This document shows positions 11,073 through 37,543 of a stretch of 64,000 nt of DNA, piece after piece. A program made the translations under genes and the position numbers. Source of the DNA: Flexivirga endophytica (lineage in GTDB: Bacteria; Actinomycetota; Actinomycetes; Actinomycetales; Dermatophilaceae); assembly GCF_014640635.1 (NCBI RefSeq), contig NZ_BMHI01000003.1, forward strand, positions 620,001-684,000, read 5' to 3'. Each line of letters begins with the position of its first letter. The first letter of the stretch is position 1. Under the pieces are notes generated by a model, which was given only the letters and a program-made list of their open reading frames with translations, had not been told where the DNA came from and did no database searches.

Positions 11073-11076
11073 CAGA

Positions 11077-11925
11077 TCAGCGCAGTCGGACGACCTCGAA
11101 CCGGTCCTGCGGATGCGCGATGGCGTCCTGCGACTGGATCAGCTGGATCTCACGAGTGCCCGCCTGATGCGTGCGCTCCATGATCGAGAACACCGAATCC
11201 GCAGTGTCCGCAAGGGCTTTCGCAGGAGTCTCGGTGAGCCACCGCGCGAGGAAGATCGCGGCCGTCGCATCACCTGCACCGGAGACATACATCGGCAGCA
11301 GCGGCGTAGTCACGAGCCACGCGCCGTCATCCGTGACGACCGCGAGTTGCACTGAATCTGCTGGGGTTTCGTCGGTCTGCACCGACGTGACCAAGACGGT
11401 GCGCGGCCCGCGGTCGCGCAGCGAGTCCACCGCCTGCAGCACGCCATCGACCGTGCGTGCCTCCGAACCGGTCAGGAAGTCCAGCTCGAATTGGTTAGGC
11501 GTCACGATGTCCGCCGCGGGAATCACCTTGTCCCGCATGAACTCCGGGATGCCCGGCCGCACGAAGAAGCCGCGCTCGACGTCGCCCATCACCGGATCCG
11601 CGCAGTAGATCGCCTTCGGATTGGCGGCCTTCACACGCGACACCGCGTCGAGGATCACCGCGCCGACCTGCTCACCGCCCTGGTAACCGGACAGCACCGC
11701 ATCGCACTCGCCGAGCACGCCGCGCTCCTCGATGCCGGTGATCACGTCGGCGACGGTCTCCGGCTCGAAGACCGGGCCACGCCACTCGCCATACCCGGTG
11801 TGGTTGGAGAAGTGCACCGTGTAGACGGGCCACACCTCGAAGCCGAGTCGCTGCAACGGAAACACCGCAGAGCTGTTGCCCGCGTGGCCGTAGGCCACCG
11901 AGGACTGGATCGACAGGATGTTCAC
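11077..11925 (-). CDS. pdxY: Pyridoxal kinase
   Basis: A 282-aa ribokinase-fold enzyme that phosphorylates pyridoxal in vitamin B6 salvage. VNILSIQSSVAYGHAGNSSA is the characteristic N-terminus, YCADPVMGD and VTPNQFELDFLTG are conserved PdxY/PdxK segments, and VSGAGDATAAIFLA holds the catalytic aspartate and anion hole. I use the GTG at 11925 because the family begins here and a TACACT box lies just 6 nt upstream (leaderless); the frame is open to 12012. Confidence 0.9.
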   Translation of the reverse strand: MNILSIQSSVAYGHAGNSSAVFPLQRLGFEVWPVYTVHFSNHTGYGEWRGPVFEPETVADVITGIEERGVLGECDAVLSGYQGGEQVGAVILDAVSRVKAANPKAIYCADPVMGDVERGFFVRPGIPEFMRDKVIPAADIVTPNQFELDFLTGSEARTVDGVLQAVDSLRDRGPRTVLVTSVQTDETPADSVQLAVVTDDGAWLVTTPLLPMYVSGAGDATAAIFLARWLTETPAKALADTADSVFSIMERTHQAGTREIQLIQSQDAIAHPQDRFEVVRLR

Positions 11926-11959
11926 CGCGGCAGTGTATGGCGGAGGGGTCGCCCGCCGG

Positions 11960-12289
11960 TCAGATGACCTGCGCGTCGGCACCCGAGTCGGTGACGACCG
12001 GCTTGCCGACATACATCCACTGCTTCATGCCGCCCTCGACGTTGGCCGAGTCGAACCCCTGCTGGTTGAGCCAGGCCACCACGCGACCGGACCGGTTGCC
12101 GGACCGACAGATGATCGGCAGCGGGTCACGCTCGTCGGACTCGGGCAGTTCGTCGAGCCGCGACGGCAGCTCACCCATCGGAATGTGTATGGCGCCCGGC
12201 GCGTGCCCGGCATCCCATTCGTTCTGCTCGCGCACATCGACGACGACGGCGTCGTCCGCCAATTGCTCGGGCGTCGTGTAATCAGTCAT
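11960..12289 (-). CDS. Rhodanese-like domain protein
   Basis: A 109-aa single rhodanese domain. VVDVREQNEWDAGHAPGAIHIPM is split around the conserved D-x-R-x-x-x-E-[YW]-x-x-G-H, and PIICRSGNRSGRVV is a textbook active-site loop C-R-S-G-N-R-S. It is the canonical GlpE/PspE-type form, different in its loop from the two other rhodanese sequences in this window. Probable sulfurtransferase or persulfide handling. It sits upstream of pdxY on the same strand (34-bp gap). Confidence 0.85.
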   Translation of the reverse strand: MTDYTTPEQLADDAVVVDVREQNEWDAGHAPGAIHIPMGELPSRLDELPESDERDPLPIICRSGNRSGRVVAWLNQQGFDSANVEGGMKQWMYVGKPVVTDSGADAQVI

Positions 12290-12396
12290 GCCTCAATCCT
12301 GACCCATCCGCCCCGCCCGATGATCGACAGGCAGCCCAAGAGTTCGAGCGGCCTACGAAAACTGGCGGAATCCGTATGCAGGGGTATGCCGGTCGA

Positions 12397-13023
12397 TCAG
12401 CCGGCACGCCGGCCCCGCCACCGCCGCAGCGGCACGCCGGCGAACCCGAGCCCGCACAGCACGAAGACGGCCAAACCGGTGGCGAGCACGGTCGCCGCGA
12501 GCGCCGCCCCCAGGAAGACAGCCGTCACGACGCGCGTTCCGGAGCCACTGACCGCATCGGCGACTGCGATGACCTCGACGAGCAGCGCCAGAAAGGGCAG
12601 CACCAGCCCGAAGGGCACCACGAACGCCGCTCCCATGGTGAACGAGCCGGCCGGCCCGGCCGTGCTCCTCGTGCTGCGGCGCTTGAGCTGCGACTCGAGA
12701 CCCACGCACTCCGTGTCGTCCGCGTCGCGCCGCACCAACGCCCGAACCCAGGCGCGCAGCTCGCTCCAGAAGCGCACGAACCGACGCAGCATCACCAGGT
12801 TGCCGCACGCCGCCGCGGCAACGAGCAACCAGCCGATGCCGACAAGCACCGGGCTCACGGTGTGCCCGTCGTCCCCCTGGGTGGCGCCGAAATAGACCAG
12901 GAACAGCCCGCCGACCAGCAGGTAGGCCAGCCCGCCGAACGCCATACCGCCGCGCACCGTGAGGAAGCGCGACTGCTCCAGCTCGCCCGCCCGCGCCTCG
13001 AGGTCGACCGCATCACTTTTCAC
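12397..13023 (-). CDS. Hypothetical membrane protein
   Basis: A 208-aa protein with four hydrophobic segments in two pairs (GGLAYLLVGGLFLVYFGA; VLVGIGWLLVAAAACGNLV; AAFVVPFGLVLPFLALLVE; TAVFLGAALAATVLATGLA) separated by a charged loop, and a basic C-terminus. No family recognised. The GTG at 13023 is preferred; an in-frame GTG at 13080 would add 19 residues of unlikely sequence, and neither has a clear ribosome site. It lies 96 bp from the Fpg/Nei gene on the same strand. Confidence 0.55.
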   Translation of the reverse strand: MKSDAVDLEARAGELEQSRFLTVRGGMAFGGLAYLLVGGLFLVYFGATQGDDGHTVSPVLVGIGWLLVAAAACGNLVMLRRFVRFWSELRAWVRALVRRDADDTECVGLESQLKRRSTRSTAGPAGSFTMGAAFVVPFGLVLPFLALLVEVIAVADAVSGSGTRVVTAVFLGAALAATVLATGLAVFVLCGLGFAGVPLRRWRGRRAG

Positions 13024-20600: not shown

Positions 20601-21170
20601 ATGACAGATCCGGGCCCGCTGCATCCGCTGTTGCGACAGCGGTGGAGTCCGCAGGACTTCCGCACCGATCACGAGCTCGACCCGGCGGACGTCGCGACCC
20701 TGCTGGAGGCCGCGCGCTGGGCGCCGTCGGCCGGCAACTCGCAGCCGTGGGCGTTCGTGGCGGCCCGTCGCGGTGACGCGATGCACCGCCGCCTCACGCT
20801 CCACCTGCTCGGCGGAGCCCGGCGCTGGGGCACTCTCGCGAGCCTGTTGCTGGTCAACCTGTGCCACCGCACGGTCGACGAAACCGACTACGAATACTCC
20901 GAATTCGCGATGTACGACCTCGGCCAGGCCGTCGCGCACCTCACCATCCAGGCCGAGGCGATGGGCCTGTCGGTGCGGCAGTTCCGCAGCTTCGACCGGG
21001 ACGCCGTCGAGACGCTGCTGACGGTCGCGCCGGGCTGGCAGGTCGCCACCATGGCCGCGGTCGGCGTGCCGCCGGAGGGGGCTGCGCCATACGCCGTGCA
21101 GCTGCCGGACGGCCGCACCCTGCCGCGCGAGCGACGACCGTTGAGGGAGATTCACCCGGAAGATCCGTGA
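20601..21170 (+). CDS. Nitroreductase-family FMN protein
   Basis: A 189-aa protein of the nitroreductase fold: RWSPQDFRTDHEL gives the N-terminal arginine/serine FMN-phosphate contact, EAARWAPSAGNSQPWAFVAA is the second FMN-binding stretch, and the C-terminal segment ends with RRPLREIHPEDP. It starts 15 bp after anmK and may be co-transcribed. Family members reduce nitro-compounds, quinones or enones with NAD(P)H; substrate unknown. The stop codon lies within the palindrome at 21163. Confidence 0.8.
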   Translation: MTDPGPLHPLLRQRWSPQDFRTDHELDPADVATLLEAARWAPSAGNSQPWAFVAARRGDAMHRRLTLHLLGGARRWGTLASLLLVNLCHRTVDETDYEYSEFAMYDLGQAVAHLTIQAEAMGLSVRQFRSFDRDAVETLLTVAPGWQVATMAAVGVPPEGAAPYAVQLPDGRTLPRERRPLREIHPEDP

Positions 21171-21180
21171 ACTCACGGAT
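21163..21180. promoter_or_regulatory. 18-bp palindrome, candidate operator (copy A)
   Basis: ATCCGTGAACTCACGGAT: perfect arms ATCCGTGA/TCACGGAT around a central AC. Seventeen of the 18 bases recur at 29046-29062 upstream of the MFS-CNB-patatin gene, within AGATCCGTGAACTCACGGA. Both copies lie 30-35 bp upstream of a rightward start codon, one at each end of the cyclase/LAL block. Spacing differs from a Crp site (GTGA-N6-TCAC), so a LuxR-type binding site is the better guess. Confidence 0.5.
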
Positions 21181-21210
21181 CCGCGGAGCCAGCTCCGGTA
21201 TGACGCTGGG

Positions 21211-21402
21211 GTGGTGCGCATCGAGATCTGGGTCGACAGTACGGACCCGCCGACCGGGCGCGTGGGGGACCACGGCGAGCCTGTGCTGTTCTGCGGCTGG
21301 ATCGACCTGCTAGCCGTCCTGTCGAACATCGTCGACACGACGGGCGACGAACACGGCGACCTCGGTGCGCGAACGCAACCCGAGTTTGGCGAGGACGTTT
21401 GA
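21211..21402 (+). CDS. Possible small protein downstream of palindrome A
   Basis: A 63-codon frame starting GTG-GTG (MVRIEIWVDSTDPPTG...) with a hydrophobic stretch FCGWIDLLAVLSNIV. A TATGAC box ends 7 nt before the GTG, in keeping with the leaderless starts elsewhere in this window, and the palindrome at 21163 lies just upstream. The last 90 bp overlap the convergent LAL gene. No family can be assigned; the N-terminal 40 residues look protein-like, the rest is antisense to the LAL HTH and may be run-on. Confidence 0.4.
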   Translation: MVRIEIWVDSTDPPTGRVGDHGEPVLFCGWIDLLAVLSNIVDTTGDEHGDLGARTQPEFGEDV

Positions 21403-24165
21403 GACATGACTCTCGACCGTCCGCCGCGACACGCTCAGGCTCTCGGCGATCTCCGGGTTCGTCTCACCGGTCGCCAGGTGTCGCGCAATGCGCTCCTCCG
21501 TGCGGGTCAACGACTCCCAACCGCTTCGTGGTCGATCCCTCGGCGGACTCGCGACGCGCACACCGGCCCGGCGGAACTGCGCGCGGGCGCGGGTCACGTC
21601 GTGGTCGGCACCGACTTCGCCATACATACGCAAAGCGGTCTCCGCCAGTCGCCTCGACTGGGACCCGCGCGTCCGCATCGCCAGCGCGGCGAGCTCGGCC
21701 ATCCGGGCGTGGTCGAGGTGCCGGGCGGTGGTCCCCATGAGGGTTGCGGCGTCGACGAGGGCCTGCGGCTCGTCCCTCGCCACACCCCGCACCGCGAGCG
21801 CCGTCGCGCGCAGATGCGCCACCGGTGCGTTGCGGTCGGCGAGCGCGGTCAGCACCTCGACGACCTCGTCCGCGCGGTCCCGCGCGACCGCCGCATCGCC
21901 CACGCCCGCGACGACGACGGCTCGCGCCAGGTCGACGAGGTCGAGTCCGAGCTCGGCGCTGTCCATCAGCATCTCGGTGGCACGGAACTCCTCCCAGCCG
22001 GCCCAGAGGACCTCGAACGTCCCGGCGACGTCGCCGCGGGCTCGCTCCACCTGGCTGCGGCCCTGCCAGATCCAGGCCCGGCCGCGACCTGCCCACGTCG
22101 TGCGATCGGGGACGGGGTCCAGTCCGAGCGCCCACTCCCGGGCGGCGTCCGGTCCGTGTTGGTGCTCCAGCACGTGTGCCCACAACCCTCGGACCGGCGG
22201 GTCGAGTCGCACGTCCATCGCGCCGACCATCGAGCGGTGTGCGTCGAGTTCGGCGGCGATGTCGGACAGATTGCCGCTGTGGCTGAGCGCGTGCGCGCCG
22301 AGAGCGTGCGCAGCGAGGACACCGGTGTGGTAGTCGAACGCGGCGGAGACCTGCAGTCCCCGGTGCAGCTGCGTGATGACGTCGTCGGTGCGTTCGACGT
22401 CGGCGAGCGCCACCGCGAACTGCGCGTGCGGGAAGGGTTCGATGCCGGTCAGGGACGGGTGCGCGTCGACCTTCGCGACCGCGTCGGACAGCAACCGGAC
22501 CGCTTCGTCGAGGTCTCCACGGCAGTTGGCCATCAGGCCCTGCAGGGTGAGCGCGTAGACCTCCGCGCCGCGGCTACCCGCTTCGGCACCGAGCTCAGCC
22601 GCTTCCTCGGCCACCCGCCGCGCACCGGCCAGGTCACCCAGCAACAGACGCGGCCAGCCGGCGAAGGCGAGTTGTTCGGCACGAGCAGCCGGCTCCAGCA
22701 CCTGGGACACGGCATACTCCTCGGCAGCGTCGCGTGCCTCGGCGTGCCGGTGCAGGAGCATCAGCGCATGGGTGCGGATGGTCGCCAGCACCGTCAGCGT
22801 CGGGACGGGGACCTGGCGTTCCAGGGTGCGTTCGGCGATCTGCGCCGCCTCCACGATGTGGCCGTCGCGCAGGGCCGCGGCCGCGAGCCCAGTGCTGGCC
22901 TGCGAGTGCCAGGGATCCGCTTCGTCCGTGACCGACTCGACGAGACGCCACAGCTGGGTCGCGGTGTCCGGGGCGGTGAGCGCGGTGTGTTCGGCGAGTC
23001 GCAGCAACCAGGGCACGTCCTGCGTGGCGGCGGGCGCGCGCAGCAGGTGCTCGGCCACCGTCGCCGGGTCGACCTGCTCCGCCTCCAATCGCAGCGCGAT
23101 CTCCCGGTGCAGTTCGGCGCGCACGATGCCCGGCAGGTCGTGCAGCAGCACCGACTGGATCAGCGCGTGCCGGAAGCCGAGCAGCTCGTGCGTGGTCTCC
23201 TCGAGGATGCCGGCGGCGAACGCCTCGCGCAGCATCGGGACCAGCGAACTCATCGCCCGGTCCGAGACGATCCGCAAGTGCGCGACGGGGAACCGGGTGC
23301 CGAGCATCGCGGCGGACGCGAGCAGCTCCCGGGTCGGCGCACTGAGATGGCTCAGGTATCGCATGATCACCATCGACAGGGACGGCGAGGGTCCCGCCGG
23401 AGCGTCCAGCAGCGCCTCGCCGCGCGGTCCGATCGCCACCGCGCCGTCACGCAGCAGCGCGCGGATCATCGCGACGAGGAAGAGCGGGTTGCCGCCCGCC
23501 GCCACCAGGCGCTGCGCGAGCACGCCCTCGACCCGGCCACCGGTCAGCTGCTGGGCGATCGAGACACAGGTCGTCTCCGGCAGCGGTCCGAGCGTCACCG
23601 TCCGCAGCAGCTCGCGCTCGGCGAGCGCGCCCAGCAGGTGATCGAGTGCCGGCGGAGTCTCGTGGCGGGCCTGCGTCCGCAGGGACCCGATGACCAGCAG
23701 TGGCATCTGCCCGAGCGTCCCGCTCAACCTGGCCAGCAGGCCGAGCGACGCCGGGTCGGCCCAGTGCAGGTCCTCCAGGACGAGCACCGCGGGCGCTGTG
23801 CCCAGCTGGTCGATCGCCGCGTGCAGTCGCTCCCCGACGACATACTCCGCCTGCCCGGCCATGGCGCGTCGATCCTCCTCCGTCAGCACCGGCGCGAAGG
23901 CGTCGAGCAGCAGTCGGTGGGTATGGCGCCGCGACATGGCGTCGCCGGCCGCGCGCAGGACGCGGGTCGACGCGGGGGCTCGGGCGAGAGCGGCATCGAT
24001 GAGCGCGGTCTTGCCGATCCCGGCCGCACCGAGCACCGCGATGAACCGGCCGGTCGACGACGTGCTGTTGAGCGCCGACAGCAGGATCGCGAGCTCCTGC
24101 TGTCGGCCGAGGAAGACGGGTCCCGGAGGGTCGGGCGGGGCCGGCCGGCGGATCGCTTCGCGCAT
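21310..24165 (-). CDS. LAL-type LuxR-family transcriptional regulator with ATPase domain
   Basis: A 951-aa regulator. Residues about 15-260 are an AAA/STAND ATPase: FLGRQQELAILLSAL, Walker A VLGAAGIGKTALID, Walker B VLVLEDLHWADPASL. The middle is a long alpha-helical TPR-like region. The C-terminus (about 880-945) is a LuxR helix-turn-helix: LTRTEERIARHLATGETNPEI and VESHVSNVLAKLGLRSRTEV. Such large ATP-binding regulators (MalT-like) activate transcription on ligand and ATP binding. Start ATG 24165; the frame is open to 24492 but that part overlaps the divergent gene. It is divergent from the cyclase gene with only 61 bp between. Confidence 0.88.
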   Translation of the reverse strand: MREAIRRPAPPDPPGPVFLGRQQELAILLSALNSTSSTGRFIAVLGAAGIGKTALIDAALARAPASTRVLRAAGDAMSRRHTHRLLLDAFAPVLTEEDRRAMAGQAEYVVGERLHAAIDQLGTAPAVLVLEDLHWADPASLGLLARLSGTLGQMPLLVIGSLRTQARHETPPALDHLLGALAERELLRTVTLGPLPETTCVSIAQQLTGGRVEGVLAQRLVAAGGNPLFLVAMIRALLRDGAVAIGPRGEALLDAPAGPSPSLSMVIMRYLSHLSAPTRELLASAAMLGTRFPVAHLRIVSDRAMSSLVPMLREAFAAGILEETTHELLGFRHALIQSVLLHDLPGIVRAELHREIALRLEAEQVDPATVAEHLLRAPAATQDVPWLLRLAEHTALTAPDTATQLWRLVESVTDEADPWHSQASTGLAAAALRDGHIVEAAQIAERTLERQVPVPTLTVLATIRTHALMLLHRHAEARDAAEEYAVSQVLEPAARAEQLAFAGWPRLLLGDLAGARRVAEEAAELGAEAGSRGAEVYALTLQGLMANCRGDLDEAVRLLSDAVAKVDAHPSLTGIEPFPHAQFAVALADVERTDDVITQLHRGLQVSAAFDYHTGVLAAHALGAHALSHSGNLSDIAAELDAHRSMVGAMDVRLDPPVRGLWAHVLEHQHGPDAAREWALGLDPVPDRTTWAGRGRAWIWQGRSQVERARGDVAGTFEVLWAGWEEFRATEMLMDSAELGLDLVDLARAVVVAGVGDAAVARDRADEVVEVLTALADRNAPVAHLRATALAVRGVARDEPQALVDAATLMGTTARHLDHARMAELAALAMRTRGSQSRRLAETALRMYGEVGADHDVTRARAQFRRAGVRVASPPRDRPRSGWESLTRTEERIARHLATGETNPEIAESLSVSRRTVESHVSNVLAKLGLRSRTEVAVFVARRVDDVRQDG

Positions 24166-24226
24166 GCTGATGACACCGCCTCTCAGCTCGCTCCGATACA
24201 CGAAGTTTAGTGAGAGGTGACGATCC

Positions 24227-27200
24227 GTGTCCCGCGAATCCGACCGGCCCGCAACGGCTCTGCGGCCGTTCGTGCCCCGGCTGGCCGCCGAATGGCTCAC
24301 CGAGCAGCCCGACCTGCGGCATCGCCGGCTGGATTGCACGATGGTCTTCGCCGACATCTCCGGCTTCACCTCGCTGACCGAGCGCCTGGCCCGGCGCGGC
24401 AAGGTCGGCGCCGAGCTGATGAGCGACACGCTCGACCTCACCTTCGGAGCACTGCTCGCTCCGGCGTTCGAGGACGGCGCGGACCTGCTCAAATGGGGCG
24501 GTGACGCCGTGCTGCTGCTCTTCCGGGGCGACGGTCACACCCGGCGGGCCGCGCACGCCGCACACCGCATGCGGGCCGAGTTGCGCGCGCTCGTCCGCAA
24601 CCGCGCGCTGCCGGTGCCGGCTCCGTTGCGTATGTCGATCGGTCTGCACAGCGGCGGGTTCGACGTCTTCTTCGTGGGCGACCCGGCCAGCCACCGCGAG
24701 ATCGTGGTCGCCGGGCCGGACACGAGTCAGCTGGCAGCCGTCGAACAGGCCTGTGCGGCCGGGAAGATCCTGCTGAGCACGGCAGCCGCCGCCCGGTTGC
24801 CGGCGGCCGCGCTGGGTGGCGTCGTGCCGGTCGCCGGGTCTGCGGCACGACTGCTGCGAACGCGTCCGGACGTGCCCGGCACGGCCGCCGACATACTGAC
24901 CGGCCCGAGTGCACCGATCGCGGACACGCTTCCGCCCGCCATCCGGGCTCATGTGCAGGAGATGGCAGGACACCCCGAACACCGTTCCATCGCAGTTGGT
25001 TTCGTGCAGTTCCTCGGCATCGACAGGCTGCTTCGCGAGAGCGGGTCGGTTGCTGCGGCAGAAGCCGTCCACCAGGTCGTGGCGACGGTGCAACGAGCGT
25101 GCCTCGAGCACGGCGTGACCTTCTTCGAGTCCGACATCGCAGCGGACGGCGGCAAGATCATGCTGACCTCCGGGGCGCCGCAGAGCACCGGTCACCATCT
25201 GGAGCGGATGCTGCGCACGGCCACCGAGATCGCGGCGCACGACGGCGCCCTCGGGGCACGGGTCGGTGTCAACACCGGCCACGTCTTCGCCGGGGACTTC
25301 GGTCCCGCCGTCCGCCGGACCTACTCGATCAAGGGCGACGCGGTGAACCTCGCCGCACGGCTGCTCGGCCACGCGCAGGTCGGGCAGGTCGTGGCCACCG
25401 AGGCGGCCGTCGCCGCGTGCGACGCACAGCTGCAGACGACGCCGCTGGAGCCGTTCGCCGTCAAGGGCAAACGGGACCCGGTCGATGCCGTCGTCGTCCA
25501 CAGCGTGCTCGACGGTCGGGCCGGTCAGGTCGAGACGCCGTTCGTCGGCCGCGCCGACGAATTGTCAACATTGAGTGGGGCACTCGCCGCGGCGATGGAA
25601 CGGAGGGGCTCGGTCGTCGATGTGGTCGGCGAGCCGGGCATCGGCAAGTCCCGACTCGTCGCCGAGCTGACCGTGCCGGACGGTATGACGAGCCACGTCA
25701 CGACGGTCAGCAGCTACGACACGGGCATGCCCTACATCGCGGTGCGCAGCCTGCTGCGCTCCGTGCTCGGCATCTCGCCGCACGACACACCGGAGGCGAT
25801 CGCCCTGAGCCTGGCGGGACGCGTGCACGCGACGGTGCCGGAGCTACTGCCGTGGCTGCCCTTGCTCGGCATACCCCTCGACCTGGACCTGACGCCGACC
25901 CGCGAGGTGCGGGAGGTGGATCCGAAGTTCCGGCGTGGCCGCATCGAGGAGCTGACGGTGGCACTGCTCGCCGCCCTGCTGCCCGGCCCGACGCTGCTGG
26001 TCTTCGAGGACACCCACCTGATGGACGAGGCGTCCAGCGCTCTGCTGCACCGACTGGCCGTGGAGAGCCACCGGCAGTCGTGGTGTGTCGTGGTCACGCG
26101 GCGTTACGTCCCCATCGGTTACGAACCGGTCCTGGCCGTGCCCGACCTGCGCGTCGTACTGGCCGCTGTGTCACCGGAGGCGGCGCTCGAGCTGCTCGAG
26201 TCGGTCTCCGGCACCAGACGGCCGAGCCGGCACCTGTTGGAGGCGATGGCGGAGCGCGCCGAGGGCAACCCGCTCTTCCTGACCTCGCTGGGTTCGATGA
26301 CCGATGCATCCACCGGGACCGACGACGAACTGCCCGACTCGGTCGAGGCGGTGCTGATCGCGGACATCGACCGGCTGGCTCCCACGGATCGGACTCTGCT
26401 GCGGATCGCCGCGGTCCTGGGCACGCGCTTCGATCCGGCCCTGGTCGCGCAGCTGCGCCCGGAGCTGACCACGGCGGCCGAATTGCCGCACCGGCTGGCC
26501 GAATTCGTCCGCCCGGTCGAGACCGGTGTGGTGGAGTTCCGACACGCGATGGTGCGAGATGTCGCGTATGCCGGGCTGCCGTTCCGGCTGCGCCGGGTGG
26601 CGCACGAGCAGGTGGCGGTCGCCCTCGAGCAGTCCCCGGACCGGGCCACCGCGACACCCGCGCTGCTGAGCATGCACTTCCACGCCGCCGGCCTGGCGGA
26701 CAAGGCCTGGTCCTACTCGCTGCGGGCCGGTGACGAAGCGCGTGCGAAATACGCCTACGGGCAGGCCGCGGTCTTCTACGCGCGCGCCCTGGACGCCGGA
26801 GCGAACCGGCCGGGAACGACGCCGGCGGCACGCTCCGCGGCATACGTCTCACTCGGCGAATGCCGCGACATGGCCGGCGACTCCGCCGGCGCGCTGACCG
26901 CGCTGCGCCAGGCCCGACGGGACCTGCGCCCGGATGTGGTCGCCACTGCCGAGGTGCTCTACAAGGAAGCGCGAATCACCTTGCGTCTCGGGCGTTATCA
27001 GCCCGCGCTGGCGCAGCTGACCCGTGCCCTGAAACTGCTCGAAGGGGTCGAGGGGCCGGTTGCCGCGGGCGTCCGCGCGACGCTCGCCACCCGGTACGGC
27101 TTCTGCCGGCACCTGCAACGGCGGACGGCCGAGGCACTGCGCTGGGGACGGCTGGGTGTCCGGTGGGCGGAGGAGTCCGGCGACCAGACGGTCCTGGCGC

Positions 27201-28033
27201 ACGCCTACAACGCCCTGCATCTGGCGTATGGCGCCTCGACCGCCACCGAGGACCGGCCGTACGGCCAGCTCGCCCTCGCGCTCTACGAGAAACTCGACGA
27301 CCTGAGTGGCCAGGCACTCACGGTCAACAACCTCGCGATCGACGCCTACAACACCGGGCGATGGGACGAGGCAGTCGACGGATTCGCCCGAGTGGCGGGC
27401 AGTTTCCGCCGGCTCGGTGACGACGCCAACGAAGCGACCGCGCTCTACAACCGCGCCGATGTGCTCGTCACCCAACGCCGCCACGCCGACGCGCTTCCCG
27501 TCCTGGACGCGGCGCTACGACTGGCGCTCGGGGTCGACGACGAGGAGCTGATCGGACTCACCTACCGCGAGCAGGCCCGCGCGCGGGCCGGGGTCGGCGA
27601 CCGCTCGGAGGCCTGGCAGCTCTTCGACCGGGCCCGAGAAGTGCTGGAGGGCCTGCACCTGACCACCGAGGTCATCCTGCTCGACGCCGCACGGGCCGAG
27701 GCGCTGCTGGACACCGGGCGTCCGGCCGAAGCGCTCGCGCTGCTGGACGATGCCTTCGAGGCGGCAGAGGCCAGAGCCGCCGACACGCTGGCCAGGCTGC
27801 ATCGGATCCGGGCGCACGCCCTGGTGGCGCAAGGTCTCCCGCGCGAAGCAGCGGCCACCGCTCGGGCCGGATTGGACCAGGACACAGGAGATTTCGGCGG
27901 CTTCGAGCCCGCGCTGCTCCGCCTCGCACTGGCCGACGCAACCCGCGACGACGACCTGCGCGACGAGTCGCACCGGGTCCTGGCCACGCTCGGTGTGTCA
28001 CCGCCAGAACCCGGTGAGTCGGCCGCCGGCTGA
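24227..28033 (+). CDS. Tandem class III nucleotidyl cyclase with AAA/STAND ATPase and TPR-like tail
   Basis: A 1268-aa cytoplasmic protein. Cyclase domain 1 (about 36-190) has both metal aspartates, D43 in MVFADISGF and D93 in WGGDAVLLLF, but Gln168 and Val172 where the catalytic Asn/Arg belong. Cyclase domain 2 (about 254-405) has N374 and R378 in GDAVNLAARLL but lacks the metal aspartates (FVQFLGI; DGGKIML). The two halves should form one active site by pairing inside the chain. Then come Walker A GEPGIGKS at 468-475, LLVFEDTHLMD, and a helical TPR-like tail (about 750-1250). The order cyclase-cyclase-NTPase-TPR recalls mammalian soluble adenylyl cyclase. GTG start with GAGAGGTG upstream. 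Product (cAMP or cGMP) not determinable by eye. Confidence 0.88.
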   Translation: MSRESDRPATALRPFVPRLAAEWLTEQPDLRHRRLDCTMVFADISGFTSLTERLARRGKVGAELMSDTLDLTFGALLAPAFEDGADLLKWGGDAVLLLFRGDGHTRRAAHAAHRMRAELRALVRNRALPVPAPLRMSIGLHSGGFDVFFVGDPASHREIVVAGPDTSQLAAVEQACAAGKILLSTAAAARLPAAALGGVVPVAGSAARLLRTRPDVPGTAADILTGPSAPIADTLPPAIRAHVQEMAGHPEHRSIAVGFVQFLGIDRLLRESGSVAAAEAVHQVVATVQRACLEHGVTFFESDIAADGGKIMLTSGAPQSTGHHLERMLRTATEIAAHDGALGARVGVNTGHVFAGDFGPAVRRTYSIKGDAVNLAARLLGHAQVGQVVATEAAVAACDAQLQTTPLEPFAVKGKRDPVDAVVVHSVLDGRAGQVETPFVGRADELSTLSGALAAAMERRGSVVDVVGEPGIGKSRLVAELTVPDGMTSHVTTVSSYDTGMPYIAVRSLLRSVLGISPHDTPEAIALSLAGRVHATVPELLPWLPLLGIPLDLDLTPTREVREVDPKFRRGRIEELTVALLAALLPGPTLLVFEDTHLMDEASSALLHRLAVESHRQSWCVVVTRRYVPIGYEPVLAVPDLRVVLAAVSPEAALELLESVSGTRRPSRHLLEAMAERAEGNPLFLTSLGSMTDASTGTDDELPDSVEAVLIADIDRLAPTDRTLLRIAAVLGTRFDPALVAQLRPELTTAAELPHRLAEFVRPVETGVVEFRHAMVRDVAYAGLPFRLRRVAHEQVAVALEQSPDRATATPALLSMHFHAAGLADKAWSYSLRAGDEARAKYAYGQAAVFYARALDAGANRPGTTPAARSAAYVSLGECRDMAGDSAGALTALRQARRDLRPDVVATAEVLYKEARITLRLGRYQPALAQLTRALKLLEGVEGPVAAGVRATLATRYGFCRHLQRRTAEALRWGRLGVRWAEESGDQTVLAHAYNALHLAYGASTATEDRPYGQLALALYEKLDDLSGQALTVNNLAIDAYNTGRWDEAVDGFARVAGSFRRLGDDANEATALYNRADVLVTQRRHADALPVLDAALRLALGVDDEELIGLTYREQARARAGVGDRSEAWQLFDRAREVLEGLHLTTEVILLDAARAEALLDTGRPAEALALLDDAFEAAEARAADTLARLHRIRAHALVAQGLPREAAATARAGLDQDTGDFGGFEPALLRLALADATRDDDLRDESHRVLATLGVSPPEPGESAAG

Positions 28034-28984
28034 TCAGATCGTGCCGCGCACGTCCTTGGCGAAGAGCACGACCAGCAACAGGTCGCCGGCGTTGTCGCGG
28101 GAGCTGGAGACGTAGTCGGTGCAGAAGTCCTGATCGGCGCCGATGACGCCCTTGCTCGGGCAGGCGGGTGCGGCCGTCAGCGGGTCCGTCGCCGACTGCG
28201 CCCACTGCGCGGTGTAATGCGGCACGCCGCCCTTGCCGCACAGCGACTTGTCGCAGACGAGCGTCATCCTCGCCGGGTCGGCACGGGTGTAGAGGCCGGT
28301 CATACCGGCGATGAACTGCGTCACGGTGTTGCCGGTGTGGCAGTGCGGGGTCCCGGCGTTGCACGGCCCAATGGTCATCACAGCGTTGGTGGTGGTGCCG
28401 TTCGGCAGGTCGACGATGCCGCAGATCGGGTTGGCCGGGCCGACCGTGGTGCACCCGGCGCCGTCGGCCCCTGCTGTGAGGGGCGAGCTTCCGCCGGCGA
28501 GGACACTGAGCGAGGACTCGACCCGGAAGGCGGCCGAGTTGCCGCTCGCGATCTTGTTGCTGTTGATGGCCTCGGCGTGGATCTGCAACGCCGAGGTCGC
28601 AGTGTCGTACTTCTCGTCCACGGTCACGCTGGTGGTGTTGGCGGGGATGACGACCTGGGTGGTGCTGAGCCGGCCGACACCGCTTCTCGGCGACAGAGCG
28701 ACGGTCGTGTCCTTGTTCTGCGCGGACGAGAGCGACACCGTGGCCTCGAACTGCACATTCACGGCCGTGAGCACGGTGGGGATGGACGCGCCCGGTGCGC
28801 CGTTCAACGCGGCCAGGAGCACCGGGTCGGTCGATGCGCTCACGCTGAGCGTGGCGGTCGGGGTCGGGCTCGCGCCGGCGGGGGCCGGCGCCGCGAACAG
28901 GGCGCCGAGCAGTGCGAGCGCCGAAAGTATGGCGAGGACGACACGCGCCCGCAGGGCGCGACTCGGAAAGTGCTGGAACATCAT
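28034..28984 (-). CDS. Secreted protein with Ig-like repeat and Cys-containing C-terminus
   Basis: A 316-aa exported protein: basic N-terminus, hydrophobic core VVLAILSALALLGALFAA and a likely signal peptidase site at AGA-SPT. Residues about 50-160 resemble a beta-sandwich (TVLTAVNVQFEATVSL; STTQVVIPANTTSVTVDEKYD). The C-terminal half has paired cysteines (GCTTVGPANPICG; GPCNAGTPHCHTG; VCDKSLCGKG; PACPSKG; FCTDYV) suggesting disulfides. ATG at 28984 has a GAGGAGC site. No family recognised. It is convergent with the cyclase (no gap) and divergent from the MFS-CNB-patatin gene, so it probably shares that promoter region. Confidence 0.65.
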   Translation of the reverse strand: MMFQHFPSRALRARVVLAILSALALLGALFAAPAPAGASPTPTATLSVSASTDPVLLAALNGAPGASIPTVLTAVNVQFEATVSLSSAQNKDTTVALSPRSGVGRLSTTQVVIPANTTSVTVDEKYDTATSALQIHAEAINSNKIASGNSAAFRVESSLSVLAGGSSPLTAGADGAGCTTVGPANPICGIVDLPNGTTTNAVMTIGPCNAGTPHCHTGNTVTQFIAGMTGLYTRADPARMTLVCDKSLCGKGGVPHYTAQWAQSATDPLTAAPACPSKGVIGADQDFCTDYVSSSRDNAGDLLLVVLFAKDVRGTI

Positions 28985-29045
28985 GCGGCTCCTCGGAGAT
29001 CGGACAAGCATGCCTTCCAGGGTCCTGCTCCGCCGCCGGAAAAAG

Positions 29046-29062
29046 ATCCGTGAACTCACGGA
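29046..29062. promoter_or_regulatory. Palindrome, candidate operator (copy B)
   Basis: ATCCGTGAACTCACGGA, the same 17 bases as copy A at 21163, preceded in both by AG. It lies in the 112-bp divergent spacer between the secreted protein and the MFS-CNB-patatin gene, 35 bp before the latter's ATG. Confidence 0.5.
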
Positions 29063-29096
29063 GGTTTCGCGCCGGCAACTCGCACATGCTCCCGAT

Positions 29097-32000
29097 ATGG
29101 CGCTGCGGTATGACGTTGAGACACAGGACGACTCGTCCGGCAGGATCCCGCCGCGGCCGAAGGCGCGCCGGGCTCGTATCCCCGAGCGGACCGTGCTGCT
29201 GGTGGCTTCGGGTGGGGCGCTGCTGGCGTTCCTGGACGTCACGATCGTCAACATCGCGTTCCCGAGCATCCGCGACTCGTTCACGACCGTGTCCATCGGG
29301 ACCATCTCGTGGGTGCTGAACGCCTACAACATCATCTTCGCGGCGTTCCTGATCATCTTCGGCCGGTTGGGCGACCTGATCGGGCGGCGTCGCGTCTACC
29401 TGCTGGGCGTGGGCGTGTTCACCCTCTCCTCGGCGGTGTGTGCGCTCTCGCCGTCGGTGGAGGTGCTGATCGCGGCACGTGTGGTCCAGGCGCTCGGAGC
29501 AGCGATGCTCGTGCCGGCGTCCCTCGCCGTGGTCATCGACGGGTTCCCGGCGGCCAGACGGGCTCGCGCGGTCGGATTGTGGTCGGCCGCTGCCGCCGTG
29601 GCGGCCGGGCTCGGCCCACCAGTCGGCGGTGCGCTGGTCGAGGCGGGCGGCTGGCGGTGGGCCTTCTGGGTCAACGTCCCCCTCGGTGCCGGCGCCTGGT
29701 TGCTGGGCCGGCGGAACCTGGTCGACAGCCGGGCGCCCGGGCGCCGCAGGCTGCCCGACATACGCGGCGCCCTGCTCCTGACGGGTGCGCTCGCACTGGC
29801 CACCACAGTGATCATCAAGGCGTCCGAGTGGGGCGGCTCCAGCGTGACGTTGTGGGTCGTCGCGGGCGGTGCGGTGCTTCTCTTCGGCTGCTTCGTGCTC
29901 AGCTCCGTGCGACACCCGGTGCCGGTCCTGGACCTGGCGATGATGCGCTACCGGCCGTTCCTCGTCGCGAACATCGCCACCGCTGTCGCCGGTGTCGGCT
30001 TCTTCGCCTACATGTTGACGAATGTCCTTTGGTTGCAATACGTCTGGCACTACACGGTGCTGGAGTCGGGGCTGGCGCTGGTGCCCGGCGCGGTCGCCGC
30101 CGCGGCCACCGCCGGACTGCTCGAACCGGTCGCGGAGCGCCTCGGCTACCGGTGGGTGATCGCCGCCGGTTTCGTCGTCTGGGTGCTCTCCTACGTCTGG
30201 TATGTCGAAGCGGTGGGCACCTCACCGGCGTTCCTCGCCCAGTGGCTGCCCGGCCAGATCATCAGCGGGATCGGGGTGGGCGCCACCCTGCCGCTCCTGG
30301 CGGCAGCCGGCCTGGTCACCCAGCCCGGCGACAAGTTCGGCACGGCCTCGGCGGTCATCTCCAGCACCCGGCAGGTCGGCGGCACCATCGGCATCGCACT
30401 GCTCGTCGCGATCCTGGGTACGCCTACGGCGCTGAACGTGGTGCCGAACCTGCGACACGGCTGGCAGATCAGCATCTACTGCTTCGCTGCGGGCGCCGTG
30501 ATCGCCTTGTGCCTCGGGCCGATCCGTCAGCGGGCCGGCAACGCAGCGGCGGACGCCGCAACCGCGGCGGGTGCACGGGTGCAGCAGCCCGACACGTCCT
30601 CGGTCGTGTTGAGCGGGGACCTGCCGCCGGAGGAGCACTCGCTCTTCCGGCGGCTGCCCGAGTCGACCCGGATACAGCTGAATGCGGCCGGTCCCCGATG
30701 GACGGTGCCCGCCGGGGACTGGCTGATGCGCCGCGGGGAGACCGCCGACCGGATGTTCGTCCTCCTCTCCGGCCGCGCCGAGGTCGTCATCGGGGACGAG
30801 GTCGTGCGCGAGCTCGGTCCCGGTGCCGTCATCGGCGAGCTGGCGCTGCTGACCGGTGGCGAACGCTCCGCGTCCGTCCGCGCGCGACGCGACTGCGAGG
30901 TGCTCGAGATCTCGAAAGCATTGATGGACAAGACAATTGCCCAGGATCCGGTCGCCCTGTCGGCGCTGGTGACCGTGCTGGCCGGTCGGCTGGCGGATGC
31001 CCGGCCGCCGGTCACTCGCACCGCCGCGCGACCCGGGCTTGTCGCAGTCATCGGCGCCGGGCCCGGCGCCGATGCGGACGCGGTCGCTGCGTTGCTGCAC
31101 ACAGCTCTGAGCCGGCGACTGCGGGTCGCTCTGCTCCCGGGCCACAGTCCGCGGGCGGAGATCGACCGGGCCGAGTCCGACAACCGATTGGTCCTCGTGG
31201 TCAGTCCGACCCAGGACACCGAGTCTGCCGCCCGGTGCGCGCGGGAGGCCGATGTCGTCGTGCTCGTGGGACGTATGGCGGAGGCGCCACCCAGCGCCAT
31301 ACTCCCGACGCACGCCCGGCCCGAGCTCGTCCTCGTCGGAGCCACCACGGCGACCTCCCGCGACGCCTGGTTGCTGGCGGTCGACCCCTGGCGGGTCAGC
31401 CGCCTGACCGACCGCGACGTCGTCGCCGGTCACGCGCCGAGCGCCATACAGGGACTGGCCGACAGGCTGTCCGGTGAAGCGTTGGGACTGGTCTTCGGCG
31501 GTGGCGGCGCGCGCGCCCTGTCGCAGGTCGGTGTGCTGCTCGAGCTGGAGGCCGCCGGGGTGCGGGTCGATCGGCTCGCCGGCACCAGCATGGGTGCCGT
31601 CATCGCCGGCATGTACGCGACGGGGGTGACTGCCGACGAGGTGAGCGACACGGCATACCAGGAGTTCGTCCGGGAGAGCATCCTGAGCGACTACCACCTG
31701 CCACGCACCTCCCTCGCGCGTGGTGCGCGGGTGCGGCGTGCGCTGCAGCGGTCCTACCGGGACCTGCGGATCGAGCAACTGCCTCGCGGGTTCCGGTGCG
31801 TGAGCACCGACCTGCTCACGCGCACCTCGGTCGTCCACCGCAGCGGATCGTTGGCGGATGCGATCGGCGCGTCGTCGCAGTTGCCCGTCCTGTTGCCGCC
31901 GATCGCTCGCGACGGGCGGCTGTTGGTGGACGGCGGAGTGCTGGACAACCTGCCGGTCGGCACCCTGACCGAGCGCAACGAGGGACCGATCATCGCGGTC

Positions 32001-32306
32001 GGTGTCTCGATGAGCGGCCAGCACCGTGCGACGGTGCCCGGTCAGCCCGCACGGCCGGTCCGGGTGCCGCCGTTGGGGGAGACGTTGTTGCGCACCCTGA
32101 TGATCGGTGGTGGCACGCCAGCGGATGCGGCGCGACTGGGTGCGTGGGTCCTCACCCCGCACTCGATGGGCGTGGGGTTGCTGGAGTTCCACCAGTTCGA
32201 CCGGATGGTGGAGTCCGGACGTGCCGCCGCGCGAGCCTTGCTGGAGCAGACCGGTGGCGACCTGTCCGCAGGGTCAGTTGACGCGCGCCGGCGCGAAAGC
32301 CGCTGA
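29097..32306 (+). CDS. DHA2-type MFS transporter fused to cyclic-nucleotide-binding and patatin phospholipase domains
   Basis: A 1069-aa fusion. Residues about 30-490: 14-helix DHA2-like transporter (DVTIVNIAFPSIRDSF; loop motif GRLGDLIGRRRVYL; LGPPVGGALVEAGGWRWAFW). About 515-640: cyclic-nucleotide-binding domain whose phosphate cassette GAVIGELALLTGGERSASV keeps the ligand residues E581 and R590. About 660-770: a Rossmann-like linker seen in NTE-type proteins. About 785-1000: patatin lipase with GGGGARALSQVG (oxyanion hole), nucleophile S831 in GTSMG and D945 in DGGVLDN. Predicted job: a membrane transporter or anchor whose lysophospholipase is switched by cAMP/cGMP. ATG 29097 has no clear ribosome site; the frame is open further upstream, so the start is uncertain. 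Confidence 0.88.
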   Translation: MALRYDVETQDDSSGRIPPRPKARRARIPERTVLLVASGGALLAFLDVTIVNIAFPSIRDSFTTVSIGTISWVLNAYNIIFAAFLIIFGRLGDLIGRRRVYLLGVGVFTLSSAVCALSPSVEVLIAARVVQALGAAMLVPASLAVVIDGFPAARRARAVGLWSAAAAVAAGLGPPVGGALVEAGGWRWAFWVNVPLGAGAWLLGRRNLVDSRAPGRRRLPDIRGALLLTGALALATTVIIKASEWGGSSVTLWVVAGGAVLLFGCFVLSSVRHPVPVLDLAMMRYRPFLVANIATAVAGVGFFAYMLTNVLWLQYVWHYTVLESGLALVPGAVAAAATAGLLEPVAERLGYRWVIAAGFVVWVLSYVWYVEAVGTSPAFLAQWLPGQIISGIGVGATLPLLAAAGLVTQPGDKFGTASAVISSTRQVGGTIGIALLVAILGTPTALNVVPNLRHGWQISIYCFAAGAVIALCLGPIRQRAGNAAADAATAAGARVQQPDTSSVVLSGDLPPEEHSLFRRLPESTRIQLNAAGPRWTVPAGDWLMRRGETADRMFVLLSGRAEVVIGDEVVRELGPGAVIGELALLTGGERSASVRARRDCEVLEISKALMDKTIAQDPVALSALVTVLAGRLADARPPVTRTAARPGLVAVIGAGPGADADAVAALLHTALSRRLRVALLPGHSPRAEIDRAESDNRLVLVVSPTQDTESAARCAREADVVVLVGRMAEAPPSAILPTHARPELVLVGATTATSRDAWLLAVDPWRVSRLTDRDVVAGHAPSAIQGLADRLSGEALGLVFGGGGARALSQVGVLLELEAAGVRVDRLAGTSMGAVIAGMYATGVTADEVSDTAYQEFVRESILSDYHLPRTSLARGARVRRALQRSYRDLRIEQLPRGFRCVSTDLLTRTSVVHRSGSLADAIGASSQLPVLLPPIARDGRLLVDGGVLDNLPVGTLTERNEGPIIAVGVSMSGQHRATVPGQPARPVRVPPLGETLLRTLMIGGGTPADAARLGAWVLTPHSMGVGLLEFHQFDRMVESGRAAARALLEQTGGDLSAGSVDARRRESR

Positions 32307-35146: not shown

Positions 35147-37543
35147 TCAGCGCCGCCGGTGGTCCCAGTGCTTGAAGCCCGCCTTCTTGGCGGCTTCCTC
35201 GTCGGTGAACCACACCTCGGCCGCGGTCCGCTCGTAGTGCGGGCTGTCGGCCGTGTGGAACAACATCGAGTCGGCGTTGCCCTTGATCGTATGGCGCTCC
35301 GACGGCGCGCTGCCGTCCTCACGCGGCGATCCGGCGCCCTCGCCGAACTGGTCCTGCATCGGGTCGCGTTCGGTCGGAGCACTGGTTGCCGGGGCGCTGG
35401 TCGCCGCGGCGTCCGTTGCCGAGGCGCTGGTAGAACCAGTGGCTCCGCTCGCGTCCGTCGAAGCTGCGCCGACGACCGGTGCCGCTGCGGTCGCGCCCGA
35501 CTCTCCGGCAGCAGTGTCCGACGTTCCGCTCGCGGCGGCAGCGCCGGCGGCGCCAGTGGCTGCGGTCCCGGTCACTCCCGTGACGGCAGGGCCGGGGTGG
35601 CTCGTGCCCACGGTGTAGGACGTGCCACCTGATGCGGTCTCCGAGCCGGCGGTGGTGCTGCCTGCTGCGGAGTCCGAGCCGGCGGTCGTGCTGTCCGCCG
35701 CGGGCCCGGTGCCGGCCGTCGTGCTACCAGCCGAACCCGTTCCGGCCGAACTCGCGCCCGCCGGGCCAGTGCCGGTCCCGGCTGAACCTGCGCCCGCCGA
35801 ACCAGTGCCGGTCCCAGACGTGTCCGAGCCGGTCGAACCCGCTCCGACGGAGCCGCGCTTGTCGCGGTTCCAGTGCGCGAAACCGGCCGAGGTGGCTGCT
35901 TTCTCGTCCCGGAACCAGACCGCTGCGCTGGTGGCGTCGTACCGCGGGCTGTCCTGGGTGTGGAACAGCATCGAATCGGCGTTGCCCTTGATGCCGAAGC
36001 CGTCGGGTGCCGAACCGTCCGGACGCGGCGACGCCGCGCCTTCGCCGAAGCGCTCGGTCATCGGGTCCGAACCGGAGGTCGATCCCGCCGAACCGGACGT
36101 CGATCCCGCCGATCCCGCCGTCGTGCCGGTGGATGAATCAACCGAGTAGCCGACCTTCTCGCCGGGCGTCGCAGCTGACGGTGCGTCAGTGGACGTCCTG
36201 TCGTCCGCCTTCACTTCATCGGTCTTCGCGTCGGCTGCCTTCGCGTCGTCGGCTTTCGCGTCACCCGACGTCGCGTCGTCGTCGTGCCGCGAAGCCGCGA
36301 CGGCTGCCGCGCCTCCGCCGGCCACCGCTGCACCACCGGCTACGGCATACCCGGCGGTGTGCCCACCGGACGAGTCGCCGGAGGAGTCGGCTGCCGATGC
36401 GTCAGCGGCCGCAGCTGCGGTGCCGGTGCCGCCACCAGTGACCGTGCCGCCGCCGGTGGCCGTGTCGGCCTCACCGCCGGTGCCTGCGTCGGCCGCACTG
36501 CCGGTGCCTGGGTCGGGCGCGATCGAACCAGCCGCGGGATGCCGAACCTCGGTGTCCTGGAACTCGTTGTCGTCGCGCCGAGCCGCGGACGCGGCACTCT
36601 CCGGCGGTGCGTCAGCCTGCCGCGGTGTCGGGTCGTCGTTCCGCGCGGCGATCTCTTCGTCGCTGCCGCCACCACGTGCGGTGCCGTCGACCGCTGCGGC
36701 GCTGGTCACCCGCTGCGGGTCGGTCGCGGTCGGAAGCGGCGGCTGCGCGTCGCTCACGCTCTGCGGTTGGGCGGACGCCGTCCCCGATACTGATCCGTCG
36801 ACCGGCTCACCGGTCGGGGAGTGTGCGGTGTCGACAGCGTCGTGCACGTCGTCGAACTCGTCGGAGCCGTCGGCCGGCAACGCGGAGTGGCGGCCCTGGG
36901 CGCCCTGGCCGCGCTGGTCCTGCGAGACGACCGGAACAGCGGTCGTCGGCGCGTCGGGGCCGGTCCCCGGTCCAGCACCTGCACCAGTACCGGCGTCGGC
37001 CTCGCGGCCGGCGGCCGCACCCTGGACCGGCTCGCCGGCCGGCATCGCCGAAGCGGACTCCGGGGTCGGGTCAGCGGCCGAGCCGTAGTTGGTCGTGGTG
37101 TGGGTCGTGCCACTCGCTGCGTCACCCGCGCCCGCGGATCCAGCACCGGCGTCGTCGATAGCAGCGCTGTCGGCGCCCGCCCTGTCCGCGCCCGCCCTGT
37201 CCGCGCCCGCCCTGTCCGCGCCCGCACTATCAGCAGCCGCATCACGGCTCGTCGCGTGGTCGTCGGACGACGAGGAGCCGGCAACTGCAGCCGCACCACC
37301 GGCAGCAGCAGCGCCTCCGGTCGCCGCGGCCGCGCCGCCTGCAGCGCCTCGGGAACCGGTCGATTCCGAACCTGATCGGTCACCGGCAGACCGGCCGCTA
37401 CCCGCTCGGTCCTCACCGGACGCGTGGCGCCCGACCTGCCCCTGCCGCTCGGTGGTTTCGCTCTTCGAGCTCCTCCCTCGCATCAAGAACCAGATGATCA
37501 GCGCGATGATGATCACCGCAATGATGATCCAAACCCACACCAT
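35147..37543 (-). CDS. Low-complexity membrane-anchored protein with two sunset domains
   Basis: A 798-aa protein. One N-terminal helix (VWIIIAVIIIALIIWFLM) is followed by about 450 residues of Ala/Gly/Ser/Thr/Asp-rich disordered sequence with tandem repeats (GADRA units; GSAGSTSGS). Two copies of a 45-residue module lie at about 518-563 and 753-798: IKGNADSMLFHT.DSP.Y...A.VWF.DE.A..AGF.HW, the actinobacterial 'sunset' domain often found at protein C-termini. Function unknown. The ATG has an AAAGGAG site. The low-complexity DNA gives long open frames on the other strand, which I treat as shadows. Confidence 0.8.
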   Translation of the reverse strand: MVWVWIIIAVIIIALIIWFLMRGRSSKSETTERQGQVGRHASGEDRAGSGRSAGDRSGSESTGSRGAAGGAAAATGGAAAAGGAAAVAGSSSSDDHATSRDAAADSAGADRAGADRAGADRAGADSAAIDDAGAGSAGAGDAASGTTHTTTNYGSAADPTPESASAMPAGEPVQGAAAGREADAGTGAGAGPGTGPDAPTTAVPVVSQDQRGQGAQGRHSALPADGSDEFDDVHDAVDTAHSPTGEPVDGSVSGTASAQPQSVSDAQPPLPTATDPQRVTSAAAVDGTARGGGSDEEIAARNDDPTPRQADAPPESAASAARRDDNEFQDTEVRHPAAGSIAPDPGTGSAADAGTGGEADTATGGGTVTGGGTGTAAAAADASAADSSGDSSGGHTAGYAVAGGAAVAGGGAAAVAASRHDDDATSGDAKADDAKAADAKTDEVKADDRTSTDAPSAATPGEKVGYSVDSSTGTTAGSAGSTSGSAGSTSGSDPMTERFGEGAASPRPDGSAPDGFGIKGNADSMLFHTQDSPRYDATSAAVWFRDEKAATSAGFAHWNRDKRGSVGAGSTGSDTSGTGTGSAGAGSAGTGTGPAGASSAGTGSAGSTTAGTGPAADSTTAGSDSAAGSTTAGSETASGGTSYTVGTSHPGPAVTGVTGTAATGAAGAAAASGTSDTAAGESGATAAAPVVGAASTDASGATGSTSASATDAAATSAPATSAPTERDPMQDQFGEGAGSPREDGSAPSERHTIKGNADSMLFHTADSPHYERTAAEVWFTDEEAAKKAGFKHWDHRRR
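37173..37231. repeat. 15-bp tandem repeat inside the sunset-domain gene
   Basis: About four units of GCGCCCGCCCTGTCC (the last diverged), encoding GADRA-type pentapeptides. In-frame minisatellite; copy number is likely to vary between strains. Confidence 0.8.

Follow-up and report, generated by a model that had tools for sequence, protein, structure and literature searches.

A 64,000-nucleotide stretch of the Flexivirga endophytica genome (assembly GCF_014640635.1, contig NZ_BMHI01000003.1, positions 620,001 to 684,000; hereafter the window, with positions counted from its first letter) encodes a tandem class III cyclase fused to a STAND NTPase and, close by, a protein that we call MFSCP, which joins an EfpA-like MFS transporter, a cyclic-nucleotide-binding domain (CNB) and a patatin phospholipase. 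These genes are neighbours in other genera as well, and we put at roughly 60% the probability that they belong to a self-contained second-messenger cassette in which the STAND-gated cyclase switches a lipid-flippase-like phospholipase. It is the conserved neighbourhood of cyclase and MFSCP, together with a local LAL regulator and a DNA tag shared by two genera, that makes the set look like a self-contained circuit. The cassette would be Pycsar-like in its logic, and it is not filed as Pycsar here because its similarity to the PADLOC models is partial.

The cyclase and its candidate effector

The cyclase gene (24227-28033, plus strand) codes for 1268 amino acids, in which Pfam recognizes two Guanylate_cyc stretches, AAA_16 and TPR_12. 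In an alignment of the window protein with 24 other sequences (25 in all), Asp43, Asp93 and Lys89 of the first cyclase domain (C1) were found in 24/24 of the cyclases with a residue there, the one further sequence having a gap, and Asn374 and Arg378 of the second domain (C2), like the P-loop Lys474, were kept in 25/25. C1 is without the Asn/Arg pair and C2 without the metal aspartates, which indicates that the two domains share one composite active site; the alignment thus shows the two metal aspartates, the transition-state Asn/Arg pair and the single composite site of class III enzymes. Position 306 of C2, where the base is recognized, was R in five sequences, V in four, S in four, T in three, A, P and H in two each, and K, Q and N in one each, the alignment being uncertain at 306-310, and position 367 was S in 22/25 cyclases. 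Recognition of a purine base would call for a Lys paired with Asp/Thr in C2; with the base-recognition position this variable, more than one nucleotide base is conceivable.

The closest solved relative of C1 is the soluble adenylyl cyclase (sAC, ADCY10), which likewise has its metal site in C1 and the Asn/Arg pair in C2, and what we take to be the C1-C2-NTPase-TPR layout and composite site of sAC match the window cyclase. The window protein differs in being bacterial and in not keeping the base-recognition position of C2, and the bicarbonate arginine of sAC, presumably R176, aligns with a non-arginine residue. Five open frames of the window genome hold six Guanylate_cyc matches, this cyclase included. 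Elsewhere in the same genome (L154, C5:1-16000), three tandem cyclase-STAND genes lie at 2989-12910 beside a stand-alone CNB gene and may form a second cyclase/CNB cluster; in another genome (L153, G024 C22:634000-650000), a cyclase-STAND gene sits between two CNB genes, together with a HEAT/MFS-like membrane protein.

MFSCP (29097-32306, plus strand; 1069 amino acids; Pfam MFS_1, cNMP_binding and Patatin) begins near 29097 by our own assignment, the mechanical open reading frame (ORF) of 28311-32306 being an over-extension. The sequence-only reading had described its nucleotide-binding cassette as intact, and as far as residues can tell this holds: G580, E581, R590, S591 and A592 form a complete phosphate cassette in the window protein, and in an alignment of 25 loci plus the window (26) the G, E, R and A were present in 26/26 and the S after R in 25/26. 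The patatin part has the GxSxG serine, the DG aspartate and the Gly-rich loop of its family, with Ser831, Asp945 and the flanking Gly in 26/26 and the oxyanion loop nearly as constant (Gly802 in 24/26, Gly803 in 26/26, Arg806 in 25/26). By sequence, the closest solved MFS protein is EfpA (E 7e-42); the likeness concerns the MFS part of MFSCP, and the matched EfpA chains are not known to carry a CNB or a patatin. EfpA holds lipids in its pathway and has been proposed to be a flippase, according to the available part of a preprint (PMC10802681). A second MFSCP gene of one genome (G552; L209, 6410-12498) is divergent from a different LAL regulator, and no cyclase was found near it.

Conservation and linkage of the gene set

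We searched an even draw of 394 genomes from the class and a family set of 186 genomes, using a model of the CNB-patatin part for MFSCP (alignment A1, E<=1e-60) and, for the family set, a cyclase model (A2, E<=1e-80). The CNB-patatin model matched 17/394 class genomes, 11 of them with a frame longer than 1000 amino acids; the remaining six hold CNB-patatin proteins of 590-612 amino acids without MFS, or partial pieces. Within the family, MFSCP was present in 14/186 genomes, one of them (G485) with a short frame only, and the cyclase in 20/186. The co-occurrence that the sequence-only reading had left to a genome search is borne out: 12 of the 14 MFSCP genomes have the cyclase (P 4e-12, ignoring relatedness), and in 10 of these 12 the two genes lie at most 10 kb apart, the exceptions being G024 and G559. 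Counted by genus, MFSCP occurs in 7/53 family genera, all seven of which have the cyclase in some species.

LAL, cyclase, the secreted-type protein described below (SEC) and MFSCP are also neighbours in another genus, g18, where four species (G483, G484, G478 and G481) have the full set, so that a neighbourhood confined to this strain can be rejected. Identities between the window and the g18 proteins are 38-42% for LAL, 51-53% for the cyclase, 42-45% for SEC and 56-57% for MFSCP. The contig of G478 ends within the cyclase gene, and LAL lies there on the opposite side of MFSCP. Cyclase, SEC and MFSCP occur in G537 and G470; in G155, a 5-kb contig carries SEC and MFSCP, and a further SEC copy accompanies a cyclase on a separate contig; in G045, the genes are split between a contig with SEC and a cyclase and one with MFSCP and a hydrolase.

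To look at linkage by locus, we counted 26 distinct MFSCP loci, leaving out the window, partial hits (L074, L200, L201, L215) and MFS-less CNB-patatin proteins, and counting duplicates once (L070/L205, L071/L204, L073/L150). The fetched flanks reach at most about 10 kb per side and are shorter at contig ends (5 kb for L189). A strong cyclase, defined in this analysis as a tblastn match above 150 bits, was found at 11/26 of these loci (L194 being of the single-cyclase type), and a hydrolase at four more and SEC at one more. By comparison, 0/74 control loci carrying MFS homologs only (1.46 Mb, of mixed phyla and not genus-matched) had a cyclase match above 150 bits; weaker cyclases were seen at 7/74, all in Mycobacterium records.

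The pairing also occurs with other cyclases. In G118 (L198, 4259-12024), a STAND cyclase, MFSCP and a fatty acid desaturase follow one another on one strand, possibly as a lipid operon; this cyclase is a single-cyclase AAA_16 protein of 1105 amino acids that ends about 25 bp upstream of MFSCP, and the occurrence of a different STAND cyclase in that position speaks for a functional pairing. A Pkinase-AAA_16-Guanylate_cyc fusion of G213 (L196; 1671-6110, minus strand) lies about 3.5 kb from MFSCP. Rv3239c and Rv3728, which we take to be MFS-CNB-patatin proteins, are probably of the same family as MFSCP, and the homologs in genus g47 (G118, L197, L199), presumably Mycobacterium judging by known architectures, exceed 1000 amino acids. 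One of them, the G118 homolog, follows a STAND cyclase, and no cyclase was seen in the 20 kb read at L197 and L199. In the available parts of two papers, Rv3239c and Rv3728 appear as efflux and iron-related genes (PMC6300501, PMC10916221), and the first of these tabulates them among efflux pumps.

SEC (28034-28984, minus strand) is a Cys-rich protein of secreted type, with a signal-peptide-like start by eye, and its stop codon touches that of the cyclase, tail to tail. The same tail-to-tail arrangement was found in 12/12 SEC copies beside a cyclase (window, L208, L210-L214, L296, L306, L308, L319, L320); at L189, SEC stands beside MFSCP on a short contig without a cyclase. Most SEC copies come from loci picked for cyclase or MFSCP, and only the class search is unbiased; there, SEC occurs in 3/394 genomes (E<=1e-6), all three of which are also MFSCP genomes. 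Seven cysteines (188, 208, 215, 244, 249, 275 and 288) are invariant in 13 SEC sequences, one of them partial. Two structure models reached a pLDDT of 61 and, with the 13 sequences, 73; as the Foldseek matches were poor, at a TM-score of about 0.2, and comprised many antibody fragments besides intimin and other proteins, we say of the predicted fold only that it is mostly beta and weakly Ig-like. SEC matched no Pfam family above cut-off and nothing on plasmids.

The shared palindrome and the LAL regulator

The LAL gene (21310-24165, minus strand) codes for 951 amino acids with an N-terminal AAA_16 STAND NTPase and a C-terminal LuxR-type helix-turn-helix (Pfam AAA_16 and GerE), the large size and domain order expected of LAL regulators. 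To its left, a 62-codon gene with a GTG start (21214-21402, plus strand) encodes a small protein and runs with its second half antisense over the LAL 3' end, an overlap that relatives share. Gene calls and Pfam agree with the sequence-only reading on the genes that it had named and on their positions; the small gene, the tail-to-tail tie of SEC and cyclase, and the hydrolase found beside the cyclase/MFSCP pair in other genera were absent from it.

It had also seen the same palindrome before rightward starts at both ends of the set, and there is indeed an exact 16-base repeat at 21164-21179 and 29047-29062. These are the cores of two operator-like sites, one (21160-21183, plus strand) ahead of the small gene and one (29043-29066, plus strand) in the divergent SEC/MFSCP intergenic region, and at both the start follows the core by 34 nt, that of the small gene after 21179 and that of MFSCP, at 29097, after 29062. 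The strict form TCCGTGANNTCACGGA occurs at these 2 places only in the 4.72-Mb genome, and the reversed control at none, which rules out a common genomic word. Within the window, with 3 mismatches allowed, 2/100 shuffles reached the observed count. A CRP site could be ruled out as well, the palindrome having a spacer of 2 and not the 6 of CRP sites.

A looser form, TCNGTGANNWCACNGA, lies between SEC and MFSCP in 5/5 loci with LAL, SEC and MFSCP, all five cores ending 34-35 nt ahead of MFSCP (with starts assigned here), and a second copy faces SEC in G483, G484 and G481. It was not found in the LAL-less neighbourhoods examined, and no operator-like site was found before the cyclase gene. Across the whole of the window genome, however, TCNGTGANNWCACNGA occurs at 6 places (11 strand matches), and it occurs in 11/11 genomes searched, LAL-less ones too. 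Single loose matches therefore mean little, and position, spacing and a 24-base matrix carry the argument; the further places may belong to an extended regulon or be sites of another factor. The matrix was built solely from 8 SEC/MFSCP intergenic sites and run on 342 sequences (3.6 Mb, many overlapping). It found a site before the small gene in 5/5 loci that have this gene (window, G483, G484, G481 and G485), ending 29-30 nt upstream of the start, and scores of at least 23 were confined to the cassette sites and two others, L232, which had been fetched by this very pattern, and L314. No matrix site was found in the SEC loci L208, L214, L189, L306, L308, L319, L320 and L296. Comparing the window with g18 by eye, the SEC/MFSCP intergenic DNA is little alike but for the operator, three of the g18 species being further alike among themselves. 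The palindrome is thus a specific, conserved element of the gene set.

ORFs 41-48% identical to the small gene stand at the same place in four relatives, and the first half is conserved too; since half of the gene is antisense to LAL, part of this conservation may be that of LAL. The small protein had no Pfam match above cut-off. All that we saw of the small gene in G478, with its displaced LAL, was a match of 20 residues containing a stop, and a further site was not seen. LAL itself was found in 5/186 family genomes (E<=1e-80, window genome included), which are the five with the SEC/MFSCP element, and in G485, MFSCP has beside it C-terminal pieces of LAL only, together with the small gene and the site that precedes it. 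We infer from this co-occurrence that LAL binds the TCNGTGANNWCACNGA element. The sequence-only reading had placed LAL among the sensors of the pathway; the evidence now points rather to local control of transcription, with the small gene, SEC and MFSCP as the targets.

Outside the set, a nitroreductase gene (20601-21170) lies at the left, and two stretches of a 798-amino-acid protein further right (35147-37543, minus strand) match NCBIfam sunset-domain models.

A second layout with a metallo-hydrolase

In G005, G550, Phycicoccus flavus (L070) and Actinotalea lenta (L069), the cyclase is followed, divergently, by a metallo-hydrolase of 267-269 amino acids and MFSCP. The hydrolase belongs to Lactamase_B_2 (PF12706), and its HxHxDH motif is kept in 8/8 aligned sequences, as SHLHWDH in seven and SHMHWDH in L190. 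The atypical class II phosphodiesterases are defined by [T/S]HXHXDH and PF12706 and are related to RNase Z, according to the portion of the source available (PMC9293780). The hydrolase bears this signature, in which it resembles Rv1339, YhfI and CpdA of C. glutamicum; it differs from them in its closest solved hits, which are not YhfI but RNase Z and PhnP, and for this reason a cyclic-nucleotide phosphodiesterase activity in the related cassettes, suggested by motif and gene context, is put forward as a guess.

The hydrolase was found in 41/394 class genomes (E<=1e-60), and loci were fetched from 25 of these, the 16 unread including 9 from genus g80. Of the 25 loci, 13 combine a cyclase with a CNB protein, 8 have a CNB protein but no cyclase, 3 the reverse, and 1 lacks both; four (L190, L191, L193 and L195) hold MFSCP, whose own CNB is counted. 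The 74 control loci had 0 CNB proteins and 0 hydrolases. With a cyclase, a CNB protein or both at 24/25 hydrolase loci, the three form recurrent clusters beyond MFSCP. A search of 24 genomes at E<=1e-20 found the hydrolase in 6; it was not found in G483, G484, G478, G481, G485, G470, G537 and G542. L306, with cyclase, hydrolase and SEC in one locus, forms a bridge between the two layouts. Loci L323-L327, in some large-genome families, are compact clusters without patatin, in which a small CNB gene and a metallo-hydrolase accompany a single cyclase domain.

Discussion

We propose that the STAND-TPR half would restrain the paired cyclase domains in the absence of a cue; once this arrived, the composite site made by the C1 metal aspartates and the C2 Asn/Arg pair, whose residues are all present, would produce a cyclic mononucleotide (cNMP). 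The cNMP would bind the CNB of MFSCP, where the cassette is intact, and the bound CNB would switch the EfpA-like lipid transporter and the patatin phospholipase and so remodel membrane lipids, as family knowledge suggests. LAL, acting at TCNGTGANNWCACNGA, would control the small gene, SEC and MFSCP, consistent with the site, its spacing and its co-occurrence with LAL, and would thereby set the amounts of the effector and of a secreted accessory protein. The cyclase would thus set the activity of the effector and LAL its amount, and in other genera the hydrolase with the atypical class II phosphodiesterase motif may end the signal.

Several observations weigh against this circuit. The cyclase may be inactive or unusual, given that C2 lacks the metal aspartates and its base-recognition position varies. 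At 10/26 MFSCP loci, the fetched DNA contained no strong cyclase (>150 bits), hydrolase or SEC, three of these (L071, L196 and L198) having another, weaker-matching cyclase. At the thresholds of the genome searches, two of the 14 MFSCP family genomes (G446 and G485) have no cyclase, 8/20 cyclase genomes have no MFSCP, and four sister species in the genus of the window have neither. All 6 solved hits of the hydrolase are RNase Z enzymes (best 9e-10) and PhnP, neither YhfI nor Apyc1 being among them, and a search of the window genome (E<=1e-20) found no such hydrolase, which leaves signal termination there unexplained.

The same data bear on three other explanations. If LAL merely co-regulated envelope-stress or lipid genes by driving SEC and MFSCP, and the cyclase fed a general cyclic-nucleotide pool with no dedicated link, then the co-occurrence of LAL and operator, the lack of a detected site before the cyclase gene and the presence of other cyclases in the genome would all be expected; yet cyclase and MFSCP remain linked at loci in which no LAL, operator or SEC was found (G005, G550, P. 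flavus and A. lenta), the linkage also holds with the different STAND cyclase of G118, and the CNB cassette is kept in 26/26, and we therefore consider co-regulation alone rather unlikely. That the set is held together only by shared ancestry or block transfer, without a common function, is very unlikely in our judgement: the species are related, so that counts are not independent, and the sporadic distribution suggests transfer, but identities are 38-57%, the SEC/MFSCP intergenic DNA of the window is little like that of the other genus except at the operator, and the partners stay together among genera in which order and orientation vary.

Immunity of the Pycsar kind, in which the STAND part would detect an invader, a cyclic and perhaps pyrimidine nucleotide would be made and the CNB-patatin protein would attack the cell's own membrane, is in our view unlikely. 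A CNB effector does adjoin the cyclase, as in Pycsar, and PADLOC returns matches of the cyclase to PycC (5e-10), of the CNB to PycTIR (1e-14) and, weakly, of the patatin to phospholipase effector models (1e-7); the variable base-recognition position and the patchy distribution of MFSCP (14/186 family genomes, and not found in the four sister species) fit as well. So does the HxHxDH motif that the hydrolase of related cassettes has in common with Apyc1-type metallo-beta-lactamase (MBL) enzymes, whose host versions may regulate Pycsar or other cNMP systems, as stated in the available part of PMC9117128. The PycC match is, however, partial (37 bits over 49 residues), and the cyclase is not a stand-alone homodimeric PycC-type enzyme: it is a tandem protein fused to STAND and TPR parts, unlike the head-to-tail homodimer that the accessible text of PMC11224242 describes for PycC. 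Neither the MFS transporter fused to the effector nor the regulated secreted protein suits a simple suicide effector, and the cassette further departs from Pycsar in its LAL with a site of its own and in its secreted partner or hydrolase. No Apyc1 chain was among the solved hits of the hydrolase, and plasmid matches to the CNB-patatin part were limited to 7 Ensifer records at 31-32% identity.

The dedicated circuit may, more tentatively, represent a widespread actinobacterial class, although we hold this wider proposal to be improbable on balance: a STAND-tandem cyclase would make a nucleotide, possibly not cAMP, for CNB effectors encoded in the same cluster. The effector here would be a lipid flippase-phospholipase able to edit or break the membrane on command; a phosphodiesterase from the cluster, or else the secreted Cys-rich protein, would switch the signal off or provide feedback, and some lineages would use the circuit for immunity. 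Word searches of open-access full texts for parts of the combination returned no relevant paper, and actinobacterial cAMP effector proteins are called poorly understood in the part of PMC9995111 that is available. Many actinobacterial cyclases and CNB proteins are without a known pairing, and a cassette with a mappable operator makes such a pairing directly testable. It also suggests a role for MFS-CNB-patatin proteins, listed in the available literature among drug efflux pumps, which may instead serve nucleotide-controlled lipid traffic.

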